Below, piece after piece: positions 50,707 to 57,851 of a stretch of DNA of 64,000 bases. A program made the translations under genes and the position numbers. This DNA comes from Dyadobacter luteus (lineage in GTDB: Bacteria; Bacteroidota; Bacteroidia; Cytophagales; Spirosomataceae), in assembly GCF_003383615.1 (NCBI RefSeq), contig NZ_QNUL01000002.1, positions 186,001 through 250,000 on the forward strand. The letters run 5' to 3'. How positions within the stretch are numbered: position 1 is the stretch's first letter; each line of letters begins with the position of its first letter. The notes under the pieces are model-generated. The model did not search any database. It saw only the letters and a list, made by a program, of their open reading frames with translations, and was not told the DNA's origin.

Positions 50707-50866
50707 ATGAAAAAAGTACGTGGAAAATTCAGCTCGAGCTTCAAGGCCAAGGCTACCATAGAAGACATCAAAGAAATGAGTATCCTCCAAGACTTAGTTT
50801 CTGAGTGACCAAATCCATCCAACCCAGATTTCGGCCTTCTGCGAGTTGGCTGAAATTACTCAATAA
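50707..50866 (+). pseudogene. IS3-family transposase OrfA fragment
   Basis: The frame starts MKKVRGKFSSSFKAKATIEDI and stops after 33 codons. The next frame reads 'HPTQISAFCELAE', which is the following part of OrfA (normally 'HPTQISAWK'). It is a frameshifted, truncated OrfA with no OrfB. Marks the left edge of the AT-rich bacteriocin island. Confidence 0.75.
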
Positions 50867-52211
50867 TCTGTCCTGCAAATGTCTCTTCAAATTTTTGAAG
50901 GATTGAATCTTCTGTATAGTTCTTAGCTAAATTGACACTGAACCTATGAAGTCTGTCGTAAAATGATTTGTCATAAATCAAGAGGTTGATTTTTTCTGTG
51001 ATCTGATCGGCATTGTCCGTCCCAAGTGTGCCTACCAATCCTAATCCGTAGTATGCAATTCGTGCGGCAAATCCAGGCTGGTCCCACCAAATAGGATAAG
51101 CAAGCATAGGTACGCGATTGTAAATACTTTCCTTCACAGACTGGGATCCACCATGAGTAATAAATACAGATGTCTTGGATAAAATCATTAGCTGCGGGAC
51201 ATTTTCAAAAAAGTGAATATTTGGAGGTGTCCGCCCTAACTTAGCTGAGTATTCCTTACTCAAACTAACCACAAAAATGTAATCTTTAAGTTTTTTCGCC
51301 ACATCAATTAGTGAGGTGAAAAATTGATTTATTTGTGATGACTTGTTCGATACGGTATAAACCGTTCCTAGCGAGCAGAAAATAATTTTTGATGTCTGGT
51401 CAATCTGATCAAAGAAAGATATGAATGAAGGTTCATAAGTTTCTTTCCTTTCGTGATCTATCACTGATCCAAGGTATTGTTGATAGTGTTGCTTGTGATT
51501 GGTAAATTCCAGCTCAAAGGGTGTTGTTATGAGCTCGGGGATGTTGTTGAACCCTACTCTGAAAACTTGTTTGGTACTGATGGAATACTTTAAGGGTATT
51601 CCGTTTTTTTTAAATTTATCTTTAATCATAGACAAATTAGACTTTCCCATGAAGATTATTCTGTCTGAGACGTCTTTAAAGAATCTGCGGGCATAGTATC
51701 TCTTCCAATGTTTATCGTAATCCGTTGTCTCATCGGGGATAACACAACAATCCAAGGGTAGGGACTTGGGTTGTTGTATGAATGATAGCATTATTTGTAT
51801 AAATCCAAATTTAATATTATACTTCTTCAGTAACTTATATAGAATAAGAAAGTCGCTCGACTGAAAAGAGTCTAACAATATAATGTCGGGTCTGTGTTCC
51901 TCGACTAACTGAAGCATTCTATTCTCTCTGGCGTTGTATAACTTGTCGTATAGCCGATCAATTAAGTTATCCAAATACCCAATCCTGAATTCCTTATTTG
52001 TCATATCCATGAAGTTCTCTCCATTCGTAGCAAATGGTAGCCCATCCAAAGATATACATCTGAATCCATTCTTAACTACATATTGATGGATCGGATGTGG
52101 TACTGCAAATAAAATACTATACCCCTTTTTGGCCAGAATTCTTGCTAGTCCAAAAGCAGGGTGTATGTGACCCATTGCATTTGGTACAATGAACATTATC
52201 TTTTCAGACAT
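50856..52211 (-). CDS. GT1-family glycosyltransferase (MGT/UGT-like)
   Basis: A 451-residue glycosyltransferase with the GT-B fold: N-terminal 'MFIVPNAMGHIHPAFGLARILAKKGYSI' and the C-terminal nucleotide-sugar site 'VFITHGGSQSVKESIYNRVPMLAYPIWWDQPGFAARI', as in macrolide and plant-type UGTs. The ATG at 52211 gives the standard start; the frame extends 18 codons further into the ABC gene. It is the last gene of the bacteriocin operon, 4 bases past the exporter stop. It may glycosylate the peptides or another acceptor; the UGT group normally acts on small hydrophobic acceptors, so the peptide idea is speculative. Confidence 0.88.
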   Translation of the reverse strand: MSEKIMFIVPNAMGHIHPAFGLARILAKKGYSILFAVPHPIHQYVVKNGFRCISLDGLPFATNGENFMDMTNKEFRIGYLDNLIDRLYDKLYNARENRMLQLVEEHRPDIILLDSFQSSDFLILYKLLKKYNIKFGFIQIMLSFIQQPKSLPLDCCVIPDETTDYDKHWKRYYARRFFKDVSDRIIFMGKSNLSMIKDKFKKNGIPLKYSISTKQVFRVGFNNIPELITTPFELEFTNHKQHYQQYLGSVIDHERKETYEPSFISFFDQIDQTSKIIFCSLGTVYTVSNKSSQINQFFTSLIDVAKKLKDYIFVVSLSKEYSAKLGRTPPNIHFFENVPQLMILSKTSVFITHGGSQSVKESIYNRVPMLAYPIWWDQPGFAARIAYYGLGLVGTLGTDNADQITEKINLLIYDKSFYDRLHRFSVNLAKNYTEDSILQKFEETFAGQIIE

Positions 52212-52215
52212 AGGA

Positions 52216-54417
52216 CTAACTTGCAGATAGTTGAGATACTTCTGCCCATGAATACCAATATTCACTATACAGATTTGAGGAAATCATTAGCTCCTGGTGA
52301 GAACCACTGTAAATCATTCTTCCATTTTCCAAAACATATATCCTTTCACATATATTTTTCAGGGTGTGCAGTCTATGAGTAATAAAGATGACGCCCATAT
52401 CCCTTTTCAAGAGAGCTAGTAAATCCAAAACGAAACGTTCAGTGTAGCGGTCCATCGAGGATGTAATTTCATCTAGTATCAGTAGTTTCGGTTTACATGC
52501 CAAGGCACGGGCAAGGCCGATGATCTGTTTCTGACCTCCCGATAACTTGATTCCATCTTCCCCCAACTCTGTCATTAACCCCTGTGGAAGGCTTTCGAAA
52601 AAAGGAAGGAAACCATACTCTTGTAGCATTGTGAAAACCTCCTGTATATCTTGGTTTGAACTACTCAGGCATACATTGAATAACACGTTTCCATTGAAAA
52701 CATGCACGTTTTGCGGCACCATACATACTGTGTTTCGCCATACATAATCGTCAACTGATGACAGAGGTATCTCATTGTTTATAAAAACGCTCTCAGATTC
52801 CGGGATGTAGAACTTATTGATAATTTGACATATCAGACTTTTACCACCTCCATTCTCTCCTACAATAGAAATAATTTCTCCTTTTGATACGCTCAGGCAT
52901 ATATTGTCTAATATTTTTGGCTTTCCAGGAAATCTATACGATAGACTATCTATTTTCAACGATTCAAAATTAAGGTTGGTATTATTCACAACGGCTGGAT
53001 TTTCGTGAGAGAAAGCAAATTCGTACATACGGTCATACGCAACCTTAGCTTCATTGATAGGTATGCTGATGAGTGCAAGATTGCTTACCACCGGTATCAA
53101 AGTTGATGCTGTGGCCAGAATAGCCGTCAGTTCGCCGACTTTAATCATTCCCGATTGCACTTCGTAGATTGAAATTGACAAAACCGTCGCTATAAAAAAA
53201 ACTGCTATCAATCCTGCAATATTGGATATACTGATTTTTATAATACCGGACCGATACAACATATCCTGGTAGGTGGTATACAGGTTATCATTTAAATTAT
53301 AAAAAAGCTGTTTTCTCTTTGCTGTCTGAATATCAGCAATTCCTAGAAGGGTATTGATATAGCTGCTTTCACTGGTAGACTTGGTTGTCATAACATTCGA
53401 CTGTGCCTGAACAACCTTGTCGTTTCTGGAGCTGATTAGGTAATAGTAAAGTGGTAGCACAATCACACAGACAATACCTATTACCCATTGATAATAGAAC
53501 AACAGACCGATAGATGAAATAAGTAGAAAAACGTCAATGAGTATATTGCCAGCAATGTACGTTGTTGTATTGGAGATTCGTGCTGTATCATTTAGCCTGG
53601 TGATAAAGTCACCTATTTTTCGACTATCGAAAAATGACTTCGGAAGATTAAGTAGTTTGTTATAAAATGAAATATTTAATTTGGTTGCGAGCTCTTTGTG
53701 CTGCCTTAACAGTAAATACTGTCTTAATGCTGATATGCCTACTCTAGTGAAAAGAATGAGAATCAGCAAGGTTGTGGATATAATTATTTTATTTAAATCT
53801 TTAGAAGGGAGTATTTTATCTATCAGTTGCTGAGAGTATATGGCCATGGAAAGGCTCAATATCGCTCCGACCAGTCCAATTAAGGCACTGACAAATAGGA
53901 TTGTGTAGTCATCTTTGAGTAGTTCTAGAAACCACTGTCTCTTTTGTTTATTGATATTGTCAGTTTTTGTGAAATCAGTTGTTAATTCCAAAGTCAGGCA
54001 TATTCGTGATTTCCAAACACGAAGCAAATCCTGTTCTGAGTATTGTTTCAAACCAGATTCAGGATCACCGATCATATAAAGATTGACATTATCAACATTA
54101 CTGGACGACTTTCCGTAAAACACTATGTAATGCTGCTGACCGCTTTCCAAAGCTACATGTAGAATCACTGGCTTTCCATGTTCGAGCAGACTATTAAAGT
54201 CTGCTTGACAGCCTTCCGCTTCGAAACCTGACTTTATCGCCGCCTCTTTTAGACCAAGCATCGATGTACCGTAAATATCTGTACCGGATAATCTGCGGAT
54301 CTGCTCAAATGTGCTATCACCCCCATAGAAGCGAATTAAAGAGATCAAGCATGCAACTCCGCAATCTTTTTGATCATGCTGGCGTGTAAATGTTTTATTT
54401 AAAATTGATTCATTCAC
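52216..54417 (-). CDS. Peptidase-containing ABC exporter (C39 peptidase, bacteriocin type)
   Basis: A 733-residue PCAT. The C39 peptidase domain (1-140) has 'RQHDQKDCGVACL' with Cys19, 'QQHYIVFYG' with His96 and 'GDPESG' with Asp118: an intact catalytic triad. Six membrane helices follow (about 170-440), then the ATPase: Walker A 'GENGGGKS', signature 'LSGGQKQ', Walker B 'LLILDEITSSMD' and switch His in 'FITHRL'. Such exporters cut the leader after a double-glycine motif and export the peptide; here the two peptides at 55.9-56.35 kb carry matching leaders. No HlyD-type accessory protein is seen next to it. Confidence 0.95.
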   Translation of the reverse strand: MNESILNKTFTRQHDQKDCGVACLISLIRFYGGDSTFEQIRRLSGTDIYGTSMLGLKEAAIKSGFEAEGCQADFNSLLEHGKPVILHVALESGQQHYIVFYGKSSSNVDNVNLYMIGDPESGLKQYSEQDLLRVWKSRICLTLELTTDFTKTDNINKQKRQWFLELLKDDYTILFVSALIGLVGAILSLSMAIYSQQLIDKILPSKDLNKIIISTTLLILILFTRVGISALRQYLLLRQHKELATKLNISFYNKLLNLPKSFFDSRKIGDFITRLNDTARISNTTTYIAGNILIDVFLLISSIGLLFYYQWVIGIVCVIVLPLYYYLISSRNDKVVQAQSNVMTTKSTSESSYINTLLGIADIQTAKRKQLFYNLNDNLYTTYQDMLYRSGIIKISISNIAGLIAVFFIATVLSISIYEVQSGMIKVGELTAILATASTLIPVVSNLALISIPINEAKVAYDRMYEFAFSHENPAVVNNTNLNFESLKIDSLSYRFPGKPKILDNICLSVSKGEIISIVGENGGGKSLICQIINKFYIPESESVFINNEIPLSSVDDYVWRNTVCMVPQNVHVFNGNVLFNVCLSSSNQDIQEVFTMLQEYGFLPFFESLPQGLMTELGEDGIKLSGGQKQIIGLARALACKPKLLILDEITSSMDRYTERFVLDLLALLKRDMGVIFITHRLHTLKNICERIYVLENGRMIYSGSHQELMISSNLYSEYWYSWAEVSQLSAS

Positions 54418-54480: not shown

Positions 54481-55002
54481 TTATTGGGTTATAGAAGCAG
54501 CAACTATTCTTATGTCCGTTTGACCGATGAATTTTTTAACTAGCACACCTTTATGGTTGTATACATATATGGTAGGGGTGACATTCAACCCCATGATATC
54601 TCTGGCGTTTTTAGGTGATATTGTTGCAAACATTAGATTCGGAATCATGTCGGTGAGGTTTGATTCACTATTGAAATGATTAACTACATCGGCATCTTCG
54701 CTGGAAAGCATCAATATTTTCGTTCCATTTAACTTGGGAAAGTTTGCTTTTAGATCATTAATTTCTTTATTGCAATGTTCGCATGTTGAGTCAAAATAAA
54801 ATATTAATAAACCTTTGCCTTTGGACCATAATTGAAGGTTTATCTTTGCACCATTTGTATCTTTTATATTCAAGTTTGGAATGGTTTCCAACATCTCATT
54901 GGAAAGTTGTCTCTGGTTTACTTTTATGATAGTCTGCCATAGCATAACAACGGTTGCTGCGCAAACTATCATAAATATGCAGATGATTACTTTCTTAGTC
55001 AT
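54481..55002 (-). CDS. Membrane-anchored thioredoxin-like protein
   Basis: A 173-residue protein: one N-terminal membrane helix (about 5-23), then a TlpA/AhpC-like thioredoxin fold with 'LLIFYFDSTCEHCNKEINDL' (Cys74-x-x-Cys77) and a cis-Pro region ('NVTPTIYVY'). It would act in the periplasm on disulfides. Its start overlaps the upstream membrane-protein gene by 4 bases. Because both precursor peptides carry two cysteines, disulfide formation or isomerisation in the peptides is its likely role (inference). Confidence 0.85.
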   Translation of the reverse strand: MTKKVIICIFMIVCAATVVMLWQTIIKVNQRQLSNEMLETIPNLNIKDTNGAKINLQLWSKGKGLLIFYFDSTCEHCNKEINDLKANFPKLNGTKILMLSSEDADVVNHFNSESNLTDMIPNLMFATISPKNARDIMGLNVTPTIYVYNHKGVLVKKFIGQTDIRIVAASITQ

Positions 55003-55643
55003 TTATGTCCGTAGGTAATTGATAAAAACATTACCGATACTATCCATAATACTAGTCCTGATCCATAGCTAGTTAGGACGATTTCAAGGGATTTGGATAA
55101 GTTCATATTTACTATTTTCCTAATTCCGTAAGCGAGAATAATCCAATATAGAATTTCAAAAATGTTTAATACCTGTAATGGGTATATAAGCCAATTCTCC
55201 AGAAGAACAGGGTCGAAAATATGGATTGCAGATAATGGGTAAAAAAAATGAATATCTTTTATACTGTAATCTATATTAACGAAATGAAACCATAATATTT
55301 TAATTACAGAAGGAATAAAGAAAATGAACTCAGCTTTCATTACGAGTGAAAACACTCGCTCGAAATCAAATCTGTCGCAATAGAAATATACTCCCAGACT
55401 TAAGCATACACTAACAAATAATAACTTGACTAATAGTATTAAAGGCATTATCAGGTATGGCACCCAAATCCACTTTCTCTCGGATTCAATAATAGATGCT
55501 ATCTGATTGTAAGAGAACTGGTCTGAGAGGGACTTGAAGTATAAATTTTCAGATATGAGGAAATATTTCGTTAAGAATATAGTCGTTACCACTGACACGA
55601 TCAGCATAAGAAATAGCGTTTTCTTATCTAGATGTATATCCAT
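54999..55643 (-). CDS. Multispanning membrane protein of the bacteriocin operon
   Basis: A 214-residue protein with five hydrophobic segments (about 9-28, 58-84, 95-113, 155-172, 190-209). No family recognised with confidence; similar proteins recur in Bacteroidota peptide-export operons. Candidate immunity protein or exporter helper. It overlaps the thioredoxin-like gene by 4 bases, showing tight coupling. Confidence 0.7.
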   Translation of the reverse strand: MDIHLDKKTLFLMLIVSVVTTIFLTKYFLISENLYFKSLSDQFSYNQIASIIESERKWIWVPYLIMPLILLVKLLFVSVCLSLGVYFYCDRFDFERVFSLVMKAEFIFFIPSVIKILWFHFVNIDYSIKDIHFFYPLSAIHIFDPVLLENWLIYPLQVLNIFEILYWIILAYGIRKIVNMNLSKSLEIVLTSYGSGLVLWIVSVMFLSITYGHK

Positions 55644-55653
55644 TCTAATTTCC

Positions 55654-55842
55654 CTATTCTGTTTTTCGATAATGTTTGAAATAAATCGAAACCAGGAGTA
55701 TTAAAATAATAAAGAAGAGTCCGATATATAAAGGTGTTACATTCCCCCTTTCTGAAACCGGCTTTTGATAGTCTCTAATTATAAATACGGCCATCAGCAA
55801 CAGACCCGATATTGCTGTTAGATTGTTTTTTAGGTATCTCAT
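55654..55842 (-). CDS. Small two-helix membrane protein (candidate immunity protein)
   Basis: A 62-residue protein with two membrane helices (about 8-22 and 38-54) and basic ends (MRYLKNN, YFKHYRKTE). The size and layout are typical of bacteriocin immunity proteins. It lies between the precursor peptides and the 214-residue membrane protein. Function inferred from context only. Confidence 0.6.
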   Translation of the reverse strand: MRYLKNNLTAISGLLLMAVFIIRDYQKPVSERGNVTPLYIGLFFIILILLVSIYFKHYRKTE

Positions 55843-55897: not shown

Positions 55898-56095
55898 TTA
55901 TGCACAATAAATCGCTAACCCAGCTCCGGCGACCGCCGCTATCAGTCCGACAGTTCCTCCGGTTGCTACCGTTACAATTCCAAAATATGTTAAGCCAGCT
56001 GTTCCGACGCCCACACCGCCAAGAAAAGCCCCTGCGTTTGTGCAGAATCCACCTCCTTGTACAATTTCTAACTCACTGATTGGTAGTGTTTTCAT
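55898..56095 (-). CDS. Double-glycine bacteriocin precursor, peptide A
   Basis: A 65-residue precursor. The leader MKTLPISELEIVQGG fits the double-glycine consensus exactly: Leu at -12, Glu-Leu at -8/-7, Val at -4, Gly-Gly at -2/-1. The 50-residue core is hydrophobic and glycine-rich with GxxxG-type spacing ('FLGGVGVGTAGL', 'AAVAGAGLAIY'). It has one Cys at core position 3 and one at 49. The exporter at 52216 has the matching C39 peptidase. Looks like one half of a two-peptide (class IIb-like) bacteriocin. Confidence 0.85.
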   Translation of the reverse strand: MKTLPISELEIVQGGGFCTNAGAFLGGVGVGTAGLTYFGIVTVATGGTVGLIAAVAGAGLAIYCA

Positions 56096-56103
56096 GATTT
56101 TTT

Positions 56104-56141
56104 AAGTTATAGTTTACTTTATAAGTTATAGTTTACTTTAT
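56104..56141 (-). repeat. Tandem 19-bp repeat upstream of the peptide A gene
   Basis: aagttatagtttactttat occurs twice back to back, 8 to 46 bases before the peptide A start. Read on the minus strand each unit contains AAGT...ACTT arms. It is a plausible binding site for the divergent XRE regulator, or a promoter duplication. Confidence 0.6.
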
Positions 56142-56171
56142 ATAGGTATTCTAGCTTATTGATAACATATT

Positions 56172-56354
56172 TTATCCACACCCACCGCCGAAATACAATG
56201 CTGCCCCAAATCCACCGATCACAATCCCTAGTGGTGCAGCAATGATTGAAGTAGAAAGTGCGGTTCCCATGCCAATCATCGTCCATGTAACGGTATCACA
56301 TCGTGCATCTCCCGCACGCGTTTGCTCTAATTCCTGTAGTCGTAGTTTTCTCAT
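56172..56354 (-). CDS. Double-glycine-type bacteriocin precursor, peptide B
   Basis: A 60-residue precursor. Leader MRKLRLQELEQTRAG is the same length as that of peptide A and shares Leu at -12, Glu-Leu at -8/-7 and Gly at -1, with Ala instead of Gly at -2. The 45-residue core has Cys at position 4 and position 44, and a hydrophobic, glycine-rich middle ('IGMGTALS', 'IGGFGAALYFGGG'). It precedes peptide A by 76 bases. Probably the second half of a two-peptide bacteriocin. Confidence 0.78.
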   Translation of the reverse strand: MRKLRLQELEQTRAGDARCDTVTWTMIGMGTALSTSIIAAPLGIVIGGFGAALYFGGGCG

Positions 56355-57074: not shown

Positions 57075-57851
57075 ATGATTAAAGTAGTTTGCTGTATTTC
57101 TGATTTCGGTGTGGCTGGTTACAGAAATGGTTTAAGCTATTCATGCAGGCGTTTTAAAATTAATCTTACAACTTTATTCCACAGTGATTTATGGCATAGT
57201 CATCGTTTGAAGGACAGTAGTCTGAAGTTATTCTTGCAGTCACAGCCCGCGGAGCAGATTGTTTTATTCACTGATGGTTACGACACCCTGTTTCTAGCTA
57301 GGGAAATGGATATCTATATCAAGTATTTACAGTTGTCTCCGAATAGGGATATTGTAGTGTCTGCAGAAACAAACTGCTATCCCGATGAAAATCTTGCAAG
57401 CGTATATCCGAATACTGTGGGTAGTTATCGGTTTTTAAATTCAGGAGGTATCATCGGGCCCGCTGCGAAATTGCTTTCTGCTCTTAATGAAATTGATTCC
57501 ATTAAACATCTGGAGGATGATAAATACGCATGGAGCAACCAGTACCTATGGTCGAAATTGTATCTTAATAGGTCGGTCCCAATGATTGTAGATCATCAGT
57601 GCGAGATATTCCAGACATTCTCAAACGACTTAAAAAGCGCACATGCCTTCGCATTAGCATCAAAGGAAGGTAAAACGGAGCTGGTTAGTCGGTTAATAGA
57701 AGATGAACGTGTCAGAATTGATGCTAACTTTGAAATTAAAGACAGTGCGATTAGTAACTTGGAGACAAACACTAGACCTTTACATTTGCATTTTAACGGG
57801 CCAATCATGAAGTTCATGATGTTTCTTGATCCATTTAGAGCCTTGATATAG
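57075..57851 (+). CDS. PLOD/GT25-like glycosyltransferase
   Basis: A 258-residue protein. 'IVLFTDGYDTLFLA' (DGYD at the place of the DxD metal motif), 'VSAETNCYPDENLASVYP' and 'SYRFLNSGGIIG' match the glycosyltransferase domain of procollagen lysyl-hydroxylase/collagen glycosyltransferases. Bacterial members glycosylate proteins or glycans. It follows the XRE regulator in the same direction and belongs to the AT-rich island. A role in peptide modification is possible but unproven. Confidence 0.8.
   Translation: MIKVVCCISDFGVAGYRNGLSYSCRRFKINLTTLFHSDLWHSHRLKDSSLKLFLQSQPAEQIVLFTDGYDTLFLAREMDIYIKYLQLSPNRDIVVSAETNCYPDENLASVYPNTVGSYRFLNSGGIIGPAAKLLSALNEIDSIKHLEDDKYAWSNQYLWSKLYLNRSVPMIVDHQCEIFQTFSNDLKSAHAFALASKEGKTELVSRLIEDERVRIDANFEIKDSAISNLETNTRPLHLHFNGPIMKFMMFLDPFRALI

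Follow-up and report, generated by a model that had tools for sequence, protein, structure and literature searches.

What do two short, cysteine-bearing genes at the head of a gene cluster in Dyadobacter luteus encode, and do their products act together? The window, that is, the whole stretch of 64,000 nucleotides that we analysed, comes from a genome of 6.95 Mb. A preliminary description of its sequence had proposed two adjacent precursors of the double-glycine type, here called P2 (first gene, partner a) and P1 (second gene, partner b). Recomputation agreed: both ORFs lie on the minus strand and begin with 15-residue leaders, and the core lengths (50 and 45 residues) and cysteine positions (3/49 and 4/44) came out as described. 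The P1 leader, MKTLPISELEIVQGG, ends in GG and the P2 leader, MRKLRLQELEQTRAG, ends in AG, not GG. Leader positions L-12, E-8, L-7 and G-1 are shared as had been stated, and so are M-15 and E-6. An intergenic gap of 76 bases separates P2 from P1, and the net charges of the two cores are -1 and 0. Neither precursor matched a Pfam model at E ≤ 0.1 or a class IIb NCBIfam model at E ≤ 1. The features of the locus are:

56172..56354, minus strand: P2 (partner a, first gene), 60-aa precursor with a 45-aa core, Cys4 and Cys44
55898..56095, minus strand: P1 (partner b, second gene), 65-aa precursor with a 50-aa core, Cys3 and Cys49
55654..55842, minus strand: protein of 62 aa, two hydrophobic segments; a candidate for immunity or a helper role
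54999..55643, minus strand: TM5, 214-aa membrane protein with five hydrophobic regions, resembling the bacteroidetocin TM protein as described
54481..55002, minus strand: membrane-anchored thioredoxin-like protein with a CEHC motif (AhpC-TSA 2.7e-09)
52216..54417, minus strand: C39 peptidase-ABC exporter (Peptidase_C39 2.8e-24; ABC_membrane 4.5e-30; ABC_tran 2.4e-24)
50856..52211, minus strand: GT1/UGT-type glycosyltransferase (UDPGT 1.4e-11), its ATG 4 bases past the exporter stop

Organization of the operon

These genes form a seven-gene operon on the minus strand in the order P2, P1, 62-aa protein, TM5, thioredoxin-like protein, C39 exporter and glycosyltransferase, with gaps after P1 of 55, 10, -4, 63 and 4 bases, gene by gene. 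An alternative GTG start of the glycosyltransferase lies at 52265. The thioredoxin-like gene of the preliminary description is indeed present and encodes a CxxC protein (CEHC, AhpC-TSA 2.7e-09) with a single N-terminal membrane segment, and both cysteines of the motif are invariant across 12 aligned members. Its best model is ResA-like, below the cut-off, and the protein could instead be a reductase.

A small transmembrane ORF between the peptides and TM5, like the 62-aa protein, occurs in 22 of 44 loci, versus 2 loci in the opposite-strand control. For bacteroidetocins, Coyne et al. (PMC6671954) describe no obvious immunity gene and report that producers inhibit themselves. Among the operon genes we identified none for an outer-membrane or adaptor protein, nor any histidine kinase. 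A sigma-70 promoter scan returned fewer sites than shuffled sequences (18 vs 24), a terminator scan gave 5 vs 3.5 in shuffles (sd 2.2), which is within the shuffle range, and a Bacteroidota-type promoter pattern did not match anywhere in the window. Window positions 57075-57851, close to the operon and on the other strand, encode a protein whose glycosyltransferase domain is of the PLOD type (8.5e-31).

Relatives of the two precursors

A search with P1 returned P0001 (97%), P0002 (68%) and P0003 (63%), while P2 as a single query matched only itself. A profile of P2 and five relatives, whose rows include proteins of Runella slithyformis, D. jejuensis and Larkinella punicea, recovered nine other proteins at E ≤ 1: five were already rows of the profile (one of them truncated), and the four additional ones are P0007, P0008, P0010 and, at E 0.36, P0013. 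Both cysteines are kept in eight of the nine proteins, and the exception, P0011, has a late start and misses the N-terminal part. The homologue search suggested in the preliminary description has been run for both peptides: apart from the late-start P0011, every listed relative keeps both cysteines, and cysteine-free homologues, named there as contrary evidence, were not seen among the listed P1 and P2 relatives.

The operon of D. koreensis (L044) has a P2 relative directly before a P1 relative (59% identical to P1), the same order as in the window. The D. koreensis precursors (L044:5951-6196 and L044:6207-6461) have similar tails past the second cysteine, TLVQPGITPGG and ILVQPTVRPGG; such a tail is missing from the window P1 and P2 and present in the P2 relative P0008. 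The P2 relative of Larkinella punicea is annotated as a bacteriocin in one source.

Distribution of TM5 loci

Using the single window sequence as query, we found TM5 in 7 of 48 genomes of the genus; a 13-row profile found it in 30 of 222 family genomes and in 20 of 395 genomes sampled from the class, the genome sets overlapping. The comparison covered 63 TM5 loci, after leaving out L039 (apparently the same sequence as L040, judged by ORFs), L027-L029 (the same places as L034-L036) and L032 (the same place as L044). An exporter match, based on a model of the whole window protein, lies in the same stretch in 50 of them, and 46 have a thioredoxin-like gene as well; L030 has only an exporter fragment beside TM5. 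Four of the 50 TM5+C39 loci gave no thioredoxin-like match, and at least two of these (L142 and L143) still have two-cysteine peptides.

One locus links the window to a known group. L089 has the gene order TM5, peptide, CxxC protein and C39, and its four-cysteine peptide has a core that begins with Lys. The TM5 model recognized it at 9.4e-14 although it lies outside the model, and we take it to encode a bacteroidetocin because the order and the peptide features match the published description (PMC6671954). L088 was also considered as a bacteroidetocin locus and dropped, no thioredoxin-like gene being found there. In the stretches fetched for L076-L087, twelve TM5-like loci from other parts of the class, neither exporter nor thioredoxin-like gene was matched, and therefore these distant TM5 relatives may have another role.

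The exporter or TM5 is split into at least two frames in L044, L034, L045, L071, L120 and L129, so that some relatives' operons look decayed or carry sequencing errors. At one TM5-C39 locus (L075:4403-5806) there are six peptides with leaders; their cores are 29-43 residues long, and five of the six have four cysteines.

Leaders and cysteines of the peptide family

Our leader profile was built from 21 seeds, most of them typed from the surveyed loci, and the test is therefore partly circular: at a score of at least 6 it found 82 precursor-like ORFs on the operon strand of the 63 TM5 loci, with none on the other strand, and at a score of at least 4, 85 versus 2. At a score of at least 7 we mined 79 ORFs, of which four were dropped as too short or too distant. 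The remaining 75 cores comprise 61 with two cysteines, 11 with four, 2 with three and 1 with one. Twelve precursors added by hand brought the set to 87 cores from 50 loci (71 with two cysteines, 12 with four, 2 with three and 2 with one); one of the two single-cysteine cores, the hand-added L073, is doubtful, and for L072 the leader was cut too early, which leaves its cysteine count as it is. Thinning at 60% identity left 80 cores, 65 of them with two cysteines. Background cysteine frequency predicts 0.36 cysteines per core and exactly two in about 4.5% of cores, whereas 71 of 87 were observed.

Among the 61 two-cysteine mined cores, the cysteines span 69% of the core, versus 34% under random placement, with the first at median position 6 and a median loop of 31 residues. 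Gly and Ala make up 39% of the loop versus 22% outside it, and D, E, K, R and H make up 3.5% of the residues between the cysteines versus 19.4% outside. Placement near each end of the core, as the preliminary description put it, is not strict, because up to 23 residues follow the last cysteine in relatives.

Pairing of first and second genes

Among the 50 TM5+C39 loci, two or more recognized peptides occur in 27, one in 22 and none in 1 (21, 23 and 6 before the additions by hand), with four and six peptides in single loci. A pair is thus not essential to this operon type, since 22 of the 50 loci have one recognized peptide.

For a comparison of positions we picked 24 pairs by hand, from 23 of the 27 multi-peptide TM5+C39 loci and from G016 (L033, with no TM5 nearby); where a locus has more than two peptides, the adjacent pair nearest TM5 was taken. 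Four loci were omitted (L035, L075, L118 and L136), and L035, the only one of them with two adjacent precursors and no other ground for omission, was later restored. Peptides at the same position are more alike across loci than those at different positions, to a degree that random flips reached 2 times in 1500. Same-position peptides account for each of the 22 strongest similarities and for 47 of the 60 strongest. When three near relatives were left out, the count was 0 of 1500 flips, and with L035 added it was 1 of 1500. The signal was weaker, at 19 of 1500, when ten loci with near relatives (L036, L044, L130, L133, L124, L129, L121, L037, L072 and L031) were removed and 15 were left. First-gene and second-gene types thus tend to be co-inherited. 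A two-peptide reading draws mainly on the conserved pair types and their order, which do not show cooperation as such.

Predicted disulfide and fold

The preliminary description had offered two readings of the cysteines, terminal closure of each peptide or a bond between the two. The number of cysteines is even in 83 of the 87 cores and odd in 4 (one of these doubtful), and there are exactly two in 17 of the 22 single-peptide loci. P2 is modelled as a hairpin of two helices (residues 2-19 and 25-40; mean pLDDT 82, pTM 0.49), while the model of P1 is weak, with three helices (pLDDT 60, pTM 0.34). Because of the even counts, the two-cysteine single-peptide loci and the predicted P2 hairpin, a bond within each peptide is favoured, and terminal closure is the best, predicted, reading. 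Calculated monoisotopic core masses are 4549.339 Da (reduced) and 4547.323 Da (closed) for P1, and 4391.146 Da and 4389.131 Da for P2. The same three observations disfavour the alternative bond between P1 and P2, which we had set aside on the cysteine counts.

Searched as a profile against PDB sequences, the P1 family had no match at E ≤ 1. Foldseek with the P2 model gave six matches, none significant (best E 5.2), to chains of complex I and transhydrogenase; membrane helices of this sort fit a hairpin and are no evidence for it. Small-xxx-small motifs are in excess in P2 (10 vs 6.4 in shuffles, p 0.027) and at shuffle level in P1 (p 0.50). GxxxG, as a possible signature of pairing, is not significant in the window cores, where it stands at shuffle level (p about 0.6), and its excess over the 24 loci is modest (p 0.031 and 0.012).

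The glycosyltransferase

The glycosyltransferase of the window is the sole match in its own genome at E ≤ 1e-5, and its best Pfam matches are UDPGT and EryCIII-like. Its model matches 9 of the 50 TM5+C39 loci, one of them with a 233-aa piece. Besides its own, there are 12 family matches at E ≤ 1e-50: seven are in TM5 operons, two immediately follow a C39 exporter, one is next to a peptide pair, one is near an ABC exporter fragment, and one has neither. By its position and the company of its closest relatives, the enzyme is part of the operon; it may modify either the peptides or the producer's own surface.

Three weaker matches (L151-L153) have no TM5, thioredoxin-like match or recognized peptide pair, although L151 is only 3.9 kb long and L152 has an ABC-exporter match some kilobases off. 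In the remaining 41 TM5+C39 loci, L131 included, the stretches compared showed no such enzyme. The first peptide of L131 closely resembles that of the glycosyltransferase locus L124, and action from a distance is possible for L131 because its genome has two weaker glycosyltransferase homologues elsewhere.

Comparison with known bacteriocins

The preliminary description knew of no Bacteroidota bacteriocin with this pattern. That claim did not survive comparison with the bacteroidetocins, which as described share the leaders, at least two cysteines and the gene set (PMC6671954). These class IIf peptides have leaders of 15-16 aa, mature sizes of 35-50 aa and at least two cysteines, and their loci encode a five-TM protein, a C39 ABC exporter and, in most regions, a thiol oxidoreductase (PMC6671954). 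Deleting the TM or the oxidoreductase gene attenuates activity, and synthetic bacteroidetocins A, C and D are active alone (PMC6671954); the target is BamA (PMC8546649). In the window, the leaders are likewise of 15 aa (GG in P1, AG in P2), the mature sizes of 45 and 50 aa with two cysteines each are inside the range of the class, and the operon has the five-TM protein, thiol oxidoreductase and C39 ABC exporter, with the TM5 model finding L089.

Bacteroidetocins A and B are basic (+6 and +2) and have four cysteines, whereas the window cores have charges of -1 and 0 and two cysteines. Bd-A and Bd-B are each a lone peptide whose gene lies between those for the TM protein and the oxidoreductase, whereas in the window two neutral, Gly/Ala-rich peptides come first, and the operon adds a small membrane protein and the glycosyltransferase. 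Compared with the published description of the bacteroidetocins, what looks new here is the typed, conserved pairs, the neutral Gly/Ala-rich cores with one predicted disulfide each and, in some of the operons, a glycosyltransferase.

The window operon type also resembles class IIb systems and the Bacteriocin_IIc family (PF10439) in having two adjacent, co-inherited double-glycine precursors with Gly-rich hydrophobic cores. Seven of 54 relatives scanned at E ≤ 0.1 match PF10439 and four match the cerein IIb model, but P1 and P2 themselves match no such family model, the host is Gram-negative, and the terminal cysteines are conserved. Most class IIb peptides are positively charged, which also sets them apart from the window cores. 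Four of the 54 relatives match MccV (PF17508) at E ≤ 0.1, and Microcin V shares a double-glycine leader and a Gly-rich hydrophobic core; it is a single peptide with an adaptor gene and a C-terminal cysteine pair, unlike the window pair. Glycocins likewise combine a C39 exporter, a thioredoxin-type gene, a glycosyltransferase and cysteine-bearing peptides. The glycocin glycosyltransferase is of the SunS type and the window enzyme is not; it is a GT1/UGT enzyme found in a minority of loci, and one disulfide is predicted per peptide.

In the literature on bacteroidetocins, two-peptide bacteriocins, class II bacteriocins and Dyadobacter bacteriocins, no title among the matches listed describes a two-peptide bacteriocin of Bacteroidota. 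Twenty-one two-component bacteriocin clusters have been predicted in rumen prokaryotes, in a passage that does not give the phyla (PMC13289728). Class II precursors of Bacteroidota have been mined at large scale (PMC12648078), and therefore peptides of the window type may already sit in such lists.

Proposed function and alternatives

The sequence shows the precursors with their cysteines and the operon, and it shows that pairs, order and cysteines are conserved. We think it reasonably probable that this is a bacteroidetocin-type operon whose co-inherited precursors form a two-peptide bacteriocin, each partner being a membrane-active helical hairpin closed by one terminal disulfide. The C39 domain would cut after GG in P1 and AG in P2, and the ABC part of the exporter would carry the cores out. 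In the periplasm, the membrane-anchored CxxC protein and TM5 would make or correct the disulfide. Both neutral hairpins would then jointly hit the envelope of related Bacteroidota, and the 62-aa protein may serve in self-protection. Several observations weigh against this reading: the weak P1 model; GxxxG and, in P1, small-xxx-small motifs at shuffle level; core charges unlike those of bacteroidetocins A and B and of most class IIb peptides; the 22 loci with one recognized peptide; the four cores with odd cysteine numbers; the four loci that gave no thioredoxin-like match; a thioredoxin-like protein that could be a reductase; the lack of an identified outer-membrane or adaptor gene; and the weaker pair-order signal after thinning of near relatives.

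The most serious alternative, to which we give a distinctly smaller chance, is that P1 and P2 are two independent bacteroidetocin-like toxins that share an export operon, each killing alone without cooperation. The solo activity of the synthetic bacteroidetocins A, C and D (PMC6671954) and the 22 of 50 loci with one recognized peptide, together with the single loci with four and six, fit such stacking of toxins, but the partner types and their order are kept to a degree that exceeds what stacking would need. The glycosyltransferase raises a further reading, rather improbable in our view, in which the GT1-type enzyme would glycosylate one core or both ahead of export, as happens in glycocins. 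Its start 4 bases past the exporter, its presence in 9 of the 50 TM5+C39 loci, and the placement of 10 of its 12 family matches at E ≤ 1e-50 in TM5 operons, after an exporter or beside a peptide pair agree with this, as do glycocin clusters that likewise join a glycosyltransferase, a C39 exporter and disulfides. Against it, 41 of the 50 loci showed no such enzyme in their stretches, L131 among them, and the enzyme could modify a surface lipid or act in immunity instead. Its UGT type is also not the SunS-like type of glycocins.

We regard as quite improbable that the peptides are secreted signals and not toxins. Pheromones also carry ComC-type double-glycine leaders, and regulators with leader-like tails occur at some loci; hydrophobic cores of 45-50 aa with two cysteines, the bacteroidetocin gene set and the lack of a histidine kinase among the operon genes speak against signalling. 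A heterodimer in which one or more disulfides join P1 to P2 is very improbable: two peptides with two cysteines each could pair in this way, but the same two cysteines occur in 17 of 22 single-peptide loci, and the predicted P2 hairpin would bring that peptide's own two ends together.

With such a two-peptide system, bacteroidetocin machinery would serve not only single basic toxins of the gut but also, in other Bacteroidota, paired peptides that are uncharged and have a single disulfide. Two-peptide action, and the part played by a dedicated oxidoreductase, could be tested here in a phylum whose Bacteroides are reported to lack general disulfide machinery (PMC6671954). At somewhat less than even odds, Bacteroidota have their own class of two-peptide bacteriocins, represented here in Spirosomataceae and Flavobacteriaceae, in which both partners are neutral helical hairpins with one terminal disulfide, made by bacteroidetocin machinery and, in one clade, decorated by a dedicated GT1 enzyme. 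The some 87 candidate peptides from 50 loci are a set for synthesis and screening.

Regulators with leader-like tails

At several loci, small regulator-like proteins end in a double-glycine leader-like motif followed by a short tail. There are nine of these, all on the operon strand: L036:5418-5819, L034:5418-5861, L030:4012-4374, L126:8367-8696, L129:8775-9104, L132:8229-8588, L135:4097-4453, L137:4506-4862 and L141:78-374. The same scan gave five opposite-strand matches, which are apparently unrelated. The exporter's peptidase might read or cut the regulator tail and so couple export to transcription. Five of the tailed regulators were compared with Pfam: two match LuxR GerE, two match HTH_17 weakly, and one has no match.
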